Shown one piece after another: positions 56,753 to 64,000 of a DNA stretch of 64,000 nt. Position numbers and translations under genes: made by a program. Within the stretch, counting starts at the first letter, position 1; the number at the start of each line of letters is the position of its first letter. The stretch comes from an uncultured Ruminiclostridium sp. (GTDB lineage Bacteria > Bacillota > Clostridia > Oscillospirales > Ruminococcaceae). Where the stretch lies: NCBI GenBank assembly GCA_944386545.1, contig CALXBK010000006.1:1-64000 (forward strand). The letters run 5' to 3'. The notes beneath the pieces were generated by a model that worked only from the letters and a program-made list of their open reading frames with translations, did not search any database and was not told the origin of the DNA.

Positions 56753-58618
56753 ATGCCGAACATTCCTCAGCTTACCACTCCGGTTACCAATAATAAAAGC
56801 TACTCATTCACAAACCGTCAGTATGACGGAAATATCGAGCCGTTCGATATGGTGGAGCTTACACAGCCGCTGAAAGCCTCAAGCTCATCCGACGGAGAAT
56901 CCGCCGCCGCGATGACAATGGGCAGAAAAAACCTTGCTCCGCTGACCGTACAGATTAAAGATCCCACCATGGCGGTCGAAACCTTAAAAAATCTGCTAAG
57001 CTCGGATATTCTCGAACAAACCATGATAAACGGCTACGATGAGCTGTACAACGATATGGACGAGCTTATCAAGAGCTTTTACCTTAATCCCGAAAAATTA
57101 GTACGCGAAATCCAGAACCAGGAAAAGCAAAACACCATGTTCAGCGGAGACGAGTTCTATAAGCTGCTTCACGGCATACTCAAAACCACCACCAGCCCCG
57201 AAATAAGGGAAAGCATGGGCACATTGCTCAAGGCGCTGAATTTTTCCACTAACAAGCAGGAAATTCTGAATGCGCTGTCTGCAAATCTGAAATTTTTGTC
57301 GGAATATTTTTCCCCAAATGCTGCGCTCTCCAAAAGGCTGTCTGTGTTGTCCGCAGGCTGGGCTGACAAAAACGCCGCCAATCTGTTTGAAACACTCAAG
57401 GGAGAAACCCTTGCGCTTTTGAAAGAGCTGTCGGGCAGTCTGCTCAACGACGAGAGAACTCAGACCTTCATACCTCTTATAGTGCATAATCTTTCAAGAT
57501 ACAACACAAACAGGTATATGCTAAAGGAAGCGTTCGCAAACTTTCTCGCCTACATACCGTCGAACGAAATGAGAAAGGAGCTTTCCGCTTCGTTCAACGA
57601 GTTGCTCCAGAAACTGTTCAGCCAAAAACAGCTGGACGAAATGAACAGCGAACCCGATATATATAATAATACACTAAATCAAAAAGAAAATCAAGAGCAA
57701 TTGAGCTTTTTTGACAATAGAAATGAAAAACTAACCATTTCTTTGTTTATAAAGACCAAAATGAGCGACGAGGATTACGTTTCACAGCTGAATCTTACTC
57801 AGGAAAAGCTGGAATTTTTAACCTCAAGCTTCTTTGAGGGGAAGCAAAGCGGTATCCAGACACTGAAAAACATATTCCTCTCCCTGCTTTCGGGAAATGA
57901 CGGCAGACAGATGATACCCGCCGTACACAAGGAATTTTCGAGCATAAAGGATATGACCGGACTTGTGGAGTATTTAAACGAGGTGCTCAGGCAAATGCCG
58001 GACATCTCGCAGAGAGAACAGCTTTTCAAGGCGTTTACCGATATTGTGAATACTATGGCTCAGAGAAAGGAGCTTCCCGCCTCGAGCAACGTTCCCTCTG
58101 CGCCCTCTACGCTTGACAAGCTGACGGATTTTATAGGCAAAAACATAAACCACGAGGCTATCCGCTCGCTGGATAACTTCAATGCGTCAAATCTACTGCA
58201 AAGCCTCCTCAACGCACCGGGCGTGTTCACTCCGCTGGCGCACTATGTACTGCCGCTGAGATTTGAGGATACCAAGGCGTTCGGAGAGCTGTGGGTGGAC
58301 AACGATGAAAACAACCCCAACAACACTCCCGCAGGACAGAAAAACTACCATTTGTTCTTAACCTTTGACGTTGAATCAATAGGCCGCTTTGAAGTGGATA
58401 TGTACGCTCTGGGCGAGAATATAAGCCTCTCCCTGCTGTACCCCGAAAGCTACGGCTTCAGGGTAAAGCGTCTTACCGAAAAAATTGATCTTGTTATAAG
58501 AAATATAGGCTACAAGCCTGTTAAATTCGAGACGTCCGTGCTTAAAAGACCTCACGTTCTGACGGAGGTTTTCCCGAAATTGGTGGAAAGGAGAAAAGGT
58601 CTTAATGTCCAAGCGTAA
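56753..58618 (+). CDS. FliK-like (flagellar hook-length) family protein
   Basis: A 621-residue protein. Most of it is helical, low-complexity and unlike anything I recognise (about 1-490). The last ~110 residues resemble the Flg_hook C-terminal domain of FliK: HYVLPLRFEDTKAFGELWV, then YHLFLTFDVESIGRFEVDMYALGENISLSLLYPES. FliK switches export from hook to filament proteins by contacting FlhB. The next gene encodes an FlhB-like fragment, which supports the call. It is divergent from cheA. Confidence 0.6.
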   Translation: MPNIPQLTTPVTNNKSYSFTNRQYDGNIEPFDMVELTQPLKASSSSDGESAAAMTMGRKNLAPLTVQIKDPTMAVETLKNLLSSDILEQTMINGYDELYNDMDELIKSFYLNPEKLVREIQNQEKQNTMFSGDEFYKLLHGILKTTTSPEIRESMGTLLKALNFSTNKQEILNALSANLKFLSEYFSPNAALSKRLSVLSAGWADKNAANLFETLKGETLALLKELSGSLLNDERTQTFIPLIVHNLSRYNTNRYMLKEAFANFLAYIPSNEMRKELSASFNELLQKLFSQKQLDEMNSEPDIYNNTLNQKENQEQLSFFDNRNEKLTISLFIKTKMSDEDYVSQLNLTQEKLEFLTSSFFEGKQSGIQTLKNIFLSLLSGNDGRQMIPAVHKEFSSIKDMTGLVEYLNEVLRQMPDISQREQLFKAFTDIVNTMAQRKELPASSNVPSAPSTLDKLTDFIGKNINHEAIRSLDNFNASNLLQSLLNAPGVFTPLAHYVLPLRFEDTKAFGELWVDNDENNPNNTPAGQKNYHLFLTFDVESIGRFEVDMYALGENISLSLLYPESYGFRVKRLTEKIDLVIRNIGYKPVKFETSVLKRPHVLTEVFPKLVERRKGLNVQA

Positions 58619-58892
58619 TTTAGGTCAGCAGGCCGCCGCCGCACTCAAATACAACCCCGATTTGAATTACGCACCCGTGGTGGTTGCGTCGGGACTGGGC
58701 GAGCTTGCAAAGAAAATTATCAACATTGCCGATGAAAACGGCGTTCCCGTCTACCGAGACGACAGCACGGCGGCGCTTCTTGTCATGCTCAACAGCGGCG
58801 AAACCATACCCGTTGAGCTTTACAGAATAATTGCGGCAATTTATGCCGAGGTGGTGTACTCCGCAAACGACATGAAAAAAGGCAAGCTCTGA
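58605..58892 (+). CDS. FlhB C-terminal-domain homologue (FhlB/YlqH type)
   Basis: A 95-residue protein matching the cytoplasmic domain of FlhB/EscU without the membrane part: AAALKYNPDLNYAPVVVASGLGELAKKIINIADENGVPVYRDDS and LYRIIAAIYAEVV. The NPTH self-cleavage site of FlhB is replaced (YAPVVVA), so autocleavage is not expected. Its start overlaps the end of the fliK-like gene by 14 bases, so the two are translationally coupled. Its role in export is unproven, but orthologues can partly replace the FlhB domain. Confidence 0.85.
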   Translation: MSKRNLGQQAAAALKYNPDLNYAPVVVASGLGELAKKIINIADENGVPVYRDDSTAALLVMLNSGETIPVELYRIIAAIYAEVVYSANDMKKGKL

Positions 58893-60332: not shown

Positions 60333-60361
60333 TTGTAAAAATCGCCGTAATGTATTATAAT
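60333..60361 (+). promoter_or_regulatory. Promoter of the SNF2-like/GHKL pair
   Basis: TTGTAA (60333-60338), 17 bases, TATAAT (60356-60361), 70 bases before the TTG start. Confidence 0.65.
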
Positions 60362-60430: not shown

Positions 60431-62416
60431 TTGAAAACCGATGAGATTAAATGGATATCCTTCTACGGCAAGGACACCGGTGCGATAAACCGTTCCTTTT
60501 ACGAGAAGGTTAAGAAATTCGGATTTTGCCTGGTGCTTGACGAATACGGCTCGGATAAAGCGTCAAAGGTACATCTGAGTATTCTTGACACCGTGCTTGA
60601 AAAAGAAAAGCCGAATATCCTGCTTGTATGCCCCAGTCATCTTATGCACAGCTGGTACCGTTCCGTAATCACCAAAACGGGACTGGACATGAAGATGATT
60701 TCCGGCTCTTCCTGCGCTATTTCCTACTTCAGCAAGGATATGTCCAATATGTACATAATCTCAGAGGATGCCGTCAAAAACGACAATCCCCTTCTAAAAC
60801 AGTTCGAGGATGAGGGACTTACCTGGGACCTTATGATTCTCGACTCTACGCTGTTCATTTCTGGACTTGAAAGCAGTCTGTACACGGACAACATCAAAAC
60901 AAAGACTGAAAAGCTTATTATTTTCAGCCCTGTTCCTTACGGATACATGAAGGACGGCGAGGGAATAAAAAATCTCGTGAAATCGCTCCTTGCAGACGAG
61001 AACAAGGCAAAGGCGGCAGATGAGATTACATTCGGCACCCAGACGATATGCTTCAACCCCTACACGCCCGTAATGCGTTATTTTGACAAATCGGTATACA
61101 ACGGCGACACGGCAAGAAACACCGTTGTGCTTGAATATGAATTTTCAAACGAATTTATCCAGAATTCAAGAAAGCTCGTTGACTTAAAGACGGGACTTCC
61201 GCTTTACGCTTACGGCGGAAACGTATTTGAGGAATACGGGCTTGAAGCAAAAAAGATATACACAAAGCCCGCCTACAACATCGCAGATGTGGCAACGCTC
61301 AGAGAAGTGGACAAAAAGCTGGACTGCTTCCTTACAAAGCTTGACGAGGTGCTGGCTTCTCCGGATAACAAGGCTCTGATTTACTGCGTGACAGGCTCGA
61401 CCATATCTTATCTCAAAAAGGTAATATCCGCGCTTCATCCGAGCTCCTCGGGCTTGCTTAAGATTGACAAAGGCGATATATTCAATACGAGGTACGGCAA
61501 CTTCACACCCGGAAATCCCACTCCTCCGAGAATAACAATAACGGTTGACAAAATCGGCTCTATTTCACCCGAAATCAAGAATTACACCCATATTTTCAAC
61601 TATGAGCTTCCCGACGATCCCGTGACGCTGGAATACCGCGCCGCACGTCATTCAATACCGGACGAGCAGAGCAAGGAGTACATATTCTTCTGCGACAAGA
61701 ACGGTCTGTTTGACAGCCGTATGCTTTCAAAGGTACTTTTCGGAAAGATTTACAGAGCTTTGGTAACCAATCTTCCCGGCAGAAATATTCTTTTCGACCT
61801 GCCCTGTGCAGCACAGCTCATAACAGGCTGTATAAAGGATTTACAGTATGTATGCGGATATACCGGCGAGGTTGCAAACTGCCTTGACGTTATCACGCAT
61901 TTCAGAAGCGATTACAACATAGCCGCAAACATCGACCTTTCTTCGGCTTCAAGGACTCACGAATACACGGCTCTCAAGCTCGAAAAAATTTACAGGGCAT
62001 TCGGCATAGAGGGCAGAATAAAGGATAATTCAACCGATGAAAAGGCGCTTCGGACGATGATTAAGGAGACGCTTGACAGATACGCAGGCTCGTTGCTTTA
62101 CTTAGACGAGCAGCAGAAGATTATCGCACTCGGAGGCGATGAGCTGAAGGAGTGCCTTTACAGCGACAGATACGAGGAATACAAATCAGGCGTCCGCCAG
62201 TCGGAAATGACCGTCGGAATAAAGAGCGCGGAAGGATCGCTTGAAAATTTCATTCCGGAAAACAAATACAACGAGCTTCGCATTTGTGTTACGCAAATGC
62301 CCGACACCGTCAAGATGCCCGTCCTGCTCAACACATGGCGGTATCTTACCGAAAACGGTATGCTGCGTGACAGCTTCAAGCAGTTTATGAAAAATTACAA
62401 CGAGGGAGTGATGTAA
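60431..62416 (+). CDS. Degenerate SNF2/superfamily-2 helicase-like protein
   Basis: A 661-residue protein that I do not recognise as a named family. Its layout resembles an SNF2 ATPase with lost motifs. FGFCLVLDEYGSDKAS (about 31-45) sits where DEMGLGKT would be, keeping the Lys but not the GKT loop. ILLVCPSHLMHSWYRSV matches motif Ia. WDLMILDST replaces the DExH box. NKALIYCVTGSTISYLKKVI and later NYTHIFNYELPDDPVTLEYRAARHSIPDEQSKEYIFFC match the second RecA-like lobe, with RAARHSIP at the arginine-finger position. ATP hydrolysis is doubtful. The start is TTG with a strong GGAGGGTGAT site. The GHKL ATPase gene begins one base after its stop codon. Confidence 0.55.
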   Translation: MKTDEIKWISFYGKDTGAINRSFYEKVKKFGFCLVLDEYGSDKASKVHLSILDTVLEKEKPNILLVCPSHLMHSWYRSVITKTGLDMKMISGSSCAISYFSKDMSNMYIISEDAVKNDNPLLKQFEDEGLTWDLMILDSTLFISGLESSLYTDNIKTKTEKLIIFSPVPYGYMKDGEGIKNLVKSLLADENKAKAADEITFGTQTICFNPYTPVMRYFDKSVYNGDTARNTVVLEYEFSNEFIQNSRKLVDLKTGLPLYAYGGNVFEEYGLEAKKIYTKPAYNIADVATLREVDKKLDCFLTKLDEVLASPDNKALIYCVTGSTISYLKKVISALHPSSSGLLKIDKGDIFNTRYGNFTPGNPTPPRITITVDKIGSISPEIKNYTHIFNYELPDDPVTLEYRAARHSIPDEQSKEYIFFCDKNGLFDSRMLSKVLFGKIYRALVTNLPGRNILFDLPCAAQLITGCIKDLQYVCGYTGEVANCLDVITHFRSDYNIAANIDLSSASRTHEYTALKLEKIYRAFGIEGRIKDNSTDEKALRTMIKETLDRYAGSLLYLDEQQKIIALGGDELKECLYSDRYEEYKSGVRQSEMTVGIKSAEGSLENFIPENKYNELRICVTQMPDTVKMPVLLNTWRYLTENGMLRDSFKQFMKNYNEGVM

Positions 62417-62417
62417 G

Positions 62418-64000
62418 GTGGAAGCGTTCCGCAATGAAGAAATAGCCGGCCTTTTGGGAGATTTTTATCAGGCGCACGCTAAAGATGACCGTGAGCTGAT
62501 GGATCAATCTCTCATGAAAATGCAGAACCTGCTTTATACGGGAGAAGCCGACAGCACTCCGTTCAAGGAATATTTCAACTCCGTATTCAGCGGCAGAACG
62601 CCGTACAACGCTTCCCTCTCGGTAAGCGACTATCCCAAGGAGTCGATAATCCGCGAACTGCTGCAAAACACCTTCGGCTGTTACTACACAGAGCAGGATA
62701 TAAAGGTACTTTTCAACTTTGAAAATGACGGAGAAATAAAGCTGACCTACAACGAGGACGGTTTTACTCTGGAGCAAATTCTTTACTATCTCAGTATAGG
62801 AAGAAGCGACGGCGACAAGATGAGAGAAGGTCGCTTCGGCGTAGGCTCAAAGAGCGTATTTATGAACGTAGAGTGGCTTAAGCTCCGTTCCAACAACTTC
62901 TCCTTCAGAATAGCAAACGACGGCGGTATTCTCAAAATCAAAGAGCTTAACCTGACCGCACCCGTGTTCAAGGGTACTGAGATTGTATTCAAGGTAAGCC
63001 CCGAGGAGCATGCAAAAATCAAGGAAAACTTCGTCAATCTGACGCTCCACAAGGGAGAATATATCAATCTTGTCGAGTTCTGCTTCGCATTTATAAGAAA
63101 GAAGCGTCTGGGCAGGTTCGGAGATACCGAAAACACCGAGCGCACCTTCAATGTAGCGGTTATGGACGTAGGCAAGCCGCTTGCGGTATACAAGATAATC
63201 CGCTTCCAGAAATCTCCCGAGGACGATCCTACCGTTCGTTTCTTGCACAACGGAAAGAGCATAATCGAATTTATCTGGCATGAAAACGATGGCTTTGTAT
63301 ACCTTATTCCGTTTGCTGTTTCCGCTTCGCGCAGGGACGCTCTTGTAAGAGTGCTTTCGGATAAGTACAACTACTTCTCAACCTACGAGCTTACCGGACT
63401 TATAAAATCCACGGGCGAGGACTTTATAAAGGAAAAGCTCTCGGCATTCTTTATAAGCGTGCCCAACTCCTATATCACCTCTCACAGAACGGGTATCCGT
63501 CACGAGTGCGAGGAGGAGGTATCGGCGGCTATTTCCCGTGATATTTCTCTTATGATAGACAAGTATTCGGGTTACTTCATGCTTGAGCTTTTGCCGCGTA
63601 CAAATTCGGACAAATATTATCTGCGTCCCAAGCACTATGTGTTTGAGTTCTTCAGCAATTACCTCGCAAACAGCTCCATGACAAGCGGGCTTGATATAAA
63701 ATTCCACAACTGCATTTCGTTGCTGTTGCCGGGAAAATCATATCCGATACCCTACGCGGAGCTTAAGGAGCTCGGCTTCTTCGCCACCGAGGACAATGTT
63801 TCAAAGAAAGAGCATGAAAGCGGCTCGGCTTTCACCGAATACATAGAGGACCAGCTCAAAAAAATGCACGCCGATGTTGCGGAAATCCCCGAAAACATTA
63901 TAATGGCAAGCTACAACTGGTACGACGAGGAAACCGATGAAGGCGGCAGAGAGTTCTGCTACAACTTCAACTTTGACGGCAGGACCTATGTGCTTGACAG
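62418..64000 (+). CDS. HSP90/sacsin-type GHKL ATPase, truncated by window end
   Basis: The open frame starts at GTG 62418 and continues past the last base. The N-terminal ATPase motifs are visible: N-box RELLQNTFG (Glu80, Asn84), NEDGFTLEQI (residues 112-121) in the Bergerat G1 position, and IGRSDGDKMREGRFGVGSKSVF (127-148), which matches the ATP lid of HSP90 and sacsin proteins. About 380 further residues follow without a recognised domain. The stop of the SNF2-like gene and this start are separated by one base, so the two are coupled. No operon end is visible. Confidence 0.8.
   Translation, partial: MEAFRNEEIAGLLGDFYQAHAKDDRELMDQSLMKMQNLLYTGEADSTPFKEYFNSVFSGRTPYNASLSVSDYPKESIIRELLQNTFGCYYTEQDIKVLFNFENDGEIKLTYNEDGFTLEQILYYLSIGRSDGDKMREGRFGVGSKSVFMNVEWLKLRSNNFSFRIANDGGILKIKELNLTAPVFKGTEIVFKVSPEEHAKIKENFVNLTLHKGEYINLVEFCFAFIRKKRLGRFGDTENTERTFNVAVMDVGKPLAVYKIIRFQKSPEDDPTVRFLHNGKSIIEFIWHENDGFVYLIPFAVSASRRDALVRVLSDKYNYFSTYELTGLIKSTGEDFIKEKLSAFFISVPNSYITSHRTGIRHECEEEVSAAISRDISLMIDKYSGYFMLELLPRTNSDKYYLRPKHYVFEFFSNYLANSSMTSGLDIKFHNCISLLLPGKSYPIPYAELKELGFFATEDNVSKKEHESGSAFTEYIEDQLKKMHADVAEIPENIIMASYNWYDEETDEGGREFCYNFNFDGRTYVLD

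Follow-up and report, generated by a model that had tools for sequence, protein, structure and literature searches.

The last 3.6 kb of a 64,000-nucleotide stretch of DNA from an uncultured Ruminiclostridium sp. (the window) hold two adjacent genes, here called A and B, the second of which extends beyond the window. A sequence-only reading had described them as a degenerate SNF2-like protein coupled to an HSP90/sacsin-type ATPase and had left their function between a chaperone-like machine, a DNA-remodelling complex and an anti-phage system. The locus raises the question of which role a SNF2 protein lacking its catalytic residues may have beside such an ATPase.

Organization of the A-B unit

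Gene A (60431-62416, + strand) starts with TTG behind a GGAGG-type ribosome site and encodes a degenerate SNF2/RapA-DrmD-type protein of 661 amino acids. One base after its stop codon, gene B (62418-65513, + strand, with 62418-64000 inside the window) starts with GTG and encodes a sacsin-type GHKL ATPase of 1031 amino acids. A promoter-like TTGTAA-17-TATAAT site (60333-60361, + strand) was found by consensus scan 70 bases ahead of A; since the scan returned 13 sites in the region against 8.6 expected, this site is weak taken alone. Just past the window, an inverted repeat of 13 bp with a T tail comes after B, and then the gene of enolase (eno) in convergent orientation. Because the enolase gene next to B runs the opposite way, the unit consists of two genes; the further members that were to be sought past 64000 are absent, no third member being present in the window genome, where the terminator and the convergent eno close B.

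The GC content of A and B (0.46 each) is close to that of the window (0.47), and their third-position GC is 0.58-0.60, compared to 0.49-0.57 in neighbouring core genes. A recent horizontal gain of the pair was rejected, since both values lie near those of the neighbouring core genes. Upstream of the pair, a 621-aa protein (56753-58618) resembles a hook-length-control partner, and the gene immediately after it (58605-58892) encodes a free-standing FlhB C-terminal domain of 95 aa (Pfam 1.2e-15); together these two appear to be ordinary flagellar accessory genes.

Motif and fold analysis of the two proteins

Pfam searches with the lone window proteins gave nothing usable, and family alignments were required. 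Helicase_C was detected in 14 of 32 members of the A family, and the family profile of A aligned with both lobes of RapA (E 3.6e-8), its best match in the PDB. Among the NCBIfam models, DrmD, the SNF2 protein of DISARM, scored best (20/32 members, 2.7e-13), followed by RapA (6.4e-7). In PADLOC the best model was HmaA (27/32 members, 1.5e-16); PADLOC comprises defence models only and carries no weight against other roles, and the general NCBIfam collection also ranks DrmD first. The closest named relatives of A are DrmD, HmaA, DpdE and BrxHI. The AlphaFold model of A has a mean pLDDT of 68, and a PDB search with it returned SNF2 proteins only as top entries (RapA, E 2.5e-11); VIA gave Z values of about 13-14.6 for residues 5-449. 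Two RecA-like lobes and the SNF2 motif order are present. Judged by profiles and model, A is a two-lobed SNF2-type protein nearest to RapA and DrmD, and the unrelated fold that would have spoken against the sequence-only reading did not emerge. A shares both helicase lobes with DISARM DrmD, HmaA and RapA, but differs from them in that it lacks the catalytic residues, is not accompanied by other DISARM or Hma genes and carries an inter-lobe signature of its own. Neither DrmA-DrmB-DrmC nor HmaB-HmaC adjoins the pair at the window locus; the recurrent neighbours at the other loci are core genes.

The substitutions pointed out earlier, GSDKAS for GxGKT and ILDST for DExH, were confirmed. The remnant of motif I (Walker A), EYGSDKASK (residues 38-46; 60542-60568, + strand), retains Lys43 in 58 of 66 relatives, and the remnant of motif II, WDLMILDST (residues 132-140; 60824-60850, + strand), contains an Asp138 found in 66/66, while the catalytic Glu139 is found in 3/66. 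None of the 63 compared A proteins of the genus has this glutamate, the position being taken mostly by A, G, S, T or L; the only carriers of it are three proteins of two sister genera. Placed on the B tree, the pattern reads as a single loss of the glutamate, basal to the genus. The Walker A motif varies freely (GSDKAS, GNDKHG, ETGKLQ), with the lysine gone in eight proteins and GxGK[ST] retained in 14 members of the family. An intact Walker A GxGK[ST] together with a DExx motif II occurs in none of the 66 family members, the window protein having GSDKA and DST. Motif VI, LEYRAARHS (residues 400-408; 61628-61654, + strand), has Arg403 in 66/66 proteins and an arginine at the arginine-finger position 406 in 55/66. 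The inter-lobe signature YxxGGNxFE (residues 259-267; 61205-61231, + strand) is conserved in 63/66, and its GGN is missing from all four active SNF2 relatives checked. By these motifs A is a dead motor; nucleotide binding by it is possible, because Lys43, Asp138, Arg403 and Arg406 are mostly retained.

For B, motif comparison revealed an N-box, RELLQN (residues 79-84; 62652-62669, + strand), and a G2 box, EGRFGVGSKSVF (residues 137-148; 62826-62861, + strand). Each of the residues E80, N84, G138, G141, G143 and K145 is shared by 67 or all 68 of the proteins, and all features of a sacsin-type GHKL site (N-box E..xN, G1 (H/Y)(D/N) and the GxFGxGxKS loop) were found in B, invariant in 67-68 of 68. 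The NCBIfam model NF047352 (sacsin-type ATPase) matched all 30 B members compared (best 2.4e-9), with the window protein reaching 22.6 bits, under the curated 50. TmtA of PADLOC, which is probably Tiamat, matched 21/30 members (best E 1.7e-12). As with TmtA and the sacsin repeats, the sacsin-type ATP site of B is N-terminal; the match to them is confined to about 90-150 residues. Judged by these residues, the ATP site of B is of the sacsin-type GHKL class and intact, as had been proposed.

The other 850 residues of B gave no reliable Pfam match. Near the C-terminus, Cys889, Cys892 and Cys927 are conserved in 67-68 of 68 proteins and form a CxxC...C pattern (L002:6418-9513, residues 889-927) for which no family match was obtained; they are likely metal-binding and may hold zinc. 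No J domain, HEPN domain or HSP90 middle or C-terminal domain was recognised in B, nor was there a Pfam HSP90 match. The structure model of B is poor across the ATPase domain (pLDDT about 35). With this poor model, Foldseek placed Hsp90 first at a weak E of 3.7e-3 and MutL-type and GyrB entries lower, VIA gave nothing beyond Z under 5, and a PDB profile search with B returned zero matches.

Distribution, genomic position and selection

Of the 71 species of the genus, 69 have B and 66 have A; among the 41 good assemblies, all have B and 39 have A. In the family sample, B is present in 7 of 198 genomes, belonging to 3 of 107 genera, and the pair was found in none of the 104 other family genera sampled. 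In a sample of the class (219 genera), B occurs solely in the genus itself. The named contigs with the pair stem from metagenome-assembled genomes whose titles read uncultured Clostridia, Ruminiclostridium or Oscillospiraceae; gut samples are the source of several. Neither plasmids nor viral contigs were found to carry the pair. A phage origin was rejected, because the sole match in a phage collection (MT835670.1, 1-22331, from human faeces and listed as an unverified 'Bacteriophage sp.') is a piece of bacterial chromosome with the same neighbours, its A and B being flanked by the same genes as in the bacterial genome G001.

The coupling of the two genes, first noticed from their one-base spacing in the window, holds throughout: A precedes B on one strand in 67/67 loci with both genes, and the gap is -1 to 2 bases in 54 of them. 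This pairing is far beyond chance. The only loci in which homologues stand apart are those with a lost or truncated A or a contig end. B without detectable A was found in two diverged species (G043 and G044), whose B genes (L073:6882-9803 and L137:120-2924) are highly diverged; the contig of G043 stops 0.6 kb upstream. In two species A is shortened to 437 amino acids, and in one species B is reduced to its C-terminal half. Since B persists without A or with an A of 437 amino acids, B is the more indispensable partner, and A is not always needed.

In 24 loci, including the sister genus g84, mraZ follows B in the same orientation, nearly always as the next gene, usually followed by rsmH, an ftsL-like gene, ftsI, murF and mraY. 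The site upstream of mraZ looks like the ancestral position of the pair. In the window genome and in several whole subclades the pair has been relocated, always as a unit. As the distance between B and mraZ is 108-550 bases, mraZ probably has its own promoter. A scan for MraZ-box-like repeats was empty before A and equally empty before mraZ and is uninformative. In 19 other genera, no hidden equivalents of A or B were detected ahead of mraZ (best E 0.13). Core genes, often those of the dcw cluster, recur beside the pair, and the earlier view that no household pathway explains the pair still stands.

The dN/dS values of A (0.04-0.15) and B (0.02-0.11) are comparable to those of rsmH and ftsI; both genes are under strong purifying selection. 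The A and B trees have 46 of 60 splits in common, and pairwise distances correlate with r 0.94. Given rsmH, ftsI and murF, the partial correlation of A and B is 0.73 (permutation p 2e-4), compared to 0.58 for the control pair A-murF. A patchy and lateral occurrence, as in mobile islands, was not observed: B is present in 69 of 71 species, and the trees are largely congruent with those of rsmH, ftsI and murF. In this genus A-B is vertically inherited core genome. An enrichment near defence genes, considered in the sequence-only reading, was not found for the pair itself, which often lies upstream of mraZ-rsmH-ftsI-murF; only its sporadic cousins look defence-like.

Related tandem loci and possible roles of the pair

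The combination of the two protein types, which had been called unusual, recurs: same-strand tandems of a SNF2 gene and a following sacsin-type ATPase gene occur sporadically within the same family, with at least six such loci found. These were reached from two weak extra A matches and a survey of sacsin proteins. Like A-B, these loci have the SNF2 gene first and the sacsin-type GHKL gene second, with 0-6 bases between them in five (L165, 3; L166, 1; L167, 4; L171, 6; L174, 0), while in L175 the second gene is broken. They differ from A-B in their sporadic occurrence, in the length of the SNF2 protein (846-1200 aa) and in its motifs, which are intact in all four loci checked (DEVGTGKT/ADSVGVGKT; GVGKT with DEAHH or GTGKT with DEGH). 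Their ATPases resemble B in the ATPase domain only, over about 130 residues. The ATPase of L166 has the YNEVGF variant in common with B and is matched by the B profile over the ATPase modules (E 2.5e-29). The SNF2 protein of L171 aligns with profile residues 24-493 of A and appears, by length and full-length alignment, to be the closest active counterpart of A in this analysis.

Several of these loci are of interest in their own right. L165 belongs to a restriction locus of type III (MTase_III 1e-175), in which a type III methylase and a restriction-like helicase are followed by an intact DrmD-like SNF2 protein and a sacsin/TmtA-type ATPase (L165:2774-14763), a candidate defence module; SNF2 proteins of this type occur in only 4/71 species of the genus. 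At L167 (7830-11432) the SNF2 protein has an N-terminal Swt1-like HEPN domain (Pfam 7.2e-9), a possible RNase effector. L171 (945-6764), from another genus, combines an active-type SNF2 protein of 846 aa (DEVGTGKT, DEGH) with a GHKL partner of 1090 aa. L174 (6192-12419) and L175 (1716-5212) represent a second type of SNF2 and sacsin tandem with a small HTH regulator gene in front, the ATPase gene of L175 being broken after 142 aa. The label 'defence-type' for these cousins is a sequence-level assignment from family matches and one restriction-modification neighbourhood.

In the literature, a search retrieved no paper naming a pair of SNF2 and sacsin-type proteins, which does not prove that none exists. 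Prokaryotic MORC and paraMORC proteins are GHKL ATPases encoded, within restriction-modification systems, in operons with superfamily II helicases, including SWI2/SNF2 (PMC2292703). The arrangement of a GHKL ATPase and a SNF2-type helicase in one operon is common to them and A-B; in contrast, the MORC and paraMORC operons also include nuclease and methylase genes, spread laterally and encode a MORC-type GHKL protein, and a dead helicase is not described in them (PMC2292703). No nuclease or methylase accompanies A-B, its recurrent neighbours being core genes.

We see about even chances that A and B form one unit, a module of a SNF2 protein and a sacsin-type GHKL ATPase that became fixed before three related genera diverged and whose motor was lost afterwards. 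From sequence comparison we infer that the pair descends from a defence-type operon like the sporadic ones; because the similarity of B is limited to the ATPase domain, A and B may instead have been paired convergently and not inherited together from a single accessory operon. A would have given up translocation and kept DNA binding, perhaps nucleotide binding as well, and would serve as targeting and regulatory partner of the ATPase B. HSP90, MutL, MORC and other GHKL proteins close as dimers in an ATP-driven manner. B might close likewise by ATP-driven dimerisation and thereby clamp or remodel DNA or a protein complex marked by A. It is conceivable, although we hold it only tentatively, that a defence-type motor-plus-clamp operon was domesticated as part of the core of this clade: its SNF2 protein would have been switched off once, and the resulting pseudo-ATPase would control a sacsin-type ATPase, the two perhaps forming a bacterial DNA clamp akin to MORC or a machine for chromosome maintenance that the genus cannot do without.

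An unlikely alternative that deserves attention is that A-B, though core, is still anti-phage, with A sensing foreign DNA or intermediates and B acting as effector or signal amplifier. The nearest named relatives are defence proteins (DrmD, HmaA, DpdE and BrxHI for A, TmtA for B), and one accessory cousin lies in the type III restriction-modification locus. However, the pair is present in nearly all species under housekeeping-like selection and beside core genes, often the dcw cluster; it was found on no plasmid, the lone 'phage' record is a bacterial contig, and the unit is without nuclease, methylase or other effector.

The sacsin-type site of B, its Foldseek match to Hsp90 and the match of A to RapA would suit a protein-folding machine, with B as a chaperone of the HSP90/sacsin kind and A as its adaptor to a single client; that client might be RNA polymerase, in view of the RapA-like fold of A. 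We regard this as improbable, since none of the domains named above was recognised in B and the named tandem cousins mostly indicate DNA-directed systems. Slightly less probable again is a role in cell division or envelope growth, which the place of A-B ahead of the mraZ-rsmH-ftsL-ftsI-murF-mraY cluster in 24 loci would suggest: the wide gap and probable own promoter of mraZ speak against it, the pair was moved away in the window genome and whole subclades with no harm, and mraZ is also found in 19 other genera that do not have the pair. That A is alive and hydrolyses ATP with its changed motif II, in the way known from some P-loop proteins, is very improbable, because the catalytic glutamate is replaced in every genus member and the Walker A motif varies freely, despite the retained Lys43, Asp138, Arg403 and Arg406 and the GxGK[ST] of 14 relatives.

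The preferred reading of A-B, that of a fixed SNF2 and sacsin-type module with a lost motor, differs from the operons described before (PMC2292703) in its sacsin-type ATPase, its dead motor, the lack of nuclease and methylase and its vertical inheritance. If true, it would provide a traceable passage from a sporadic defence-type operon to a fixed core function, with a single bacterial family showing the dead form alongside live cousins and intermediates (A shortened, A lost, motif II kept in the sister genera). The role of a SNF2 protein that does without ATP hydrolysis and yet is strongly selected thereby becomes a testable question, with parallels in the pseudo-helicase partners and MORC and sacsin ATPases of eukaryotes.
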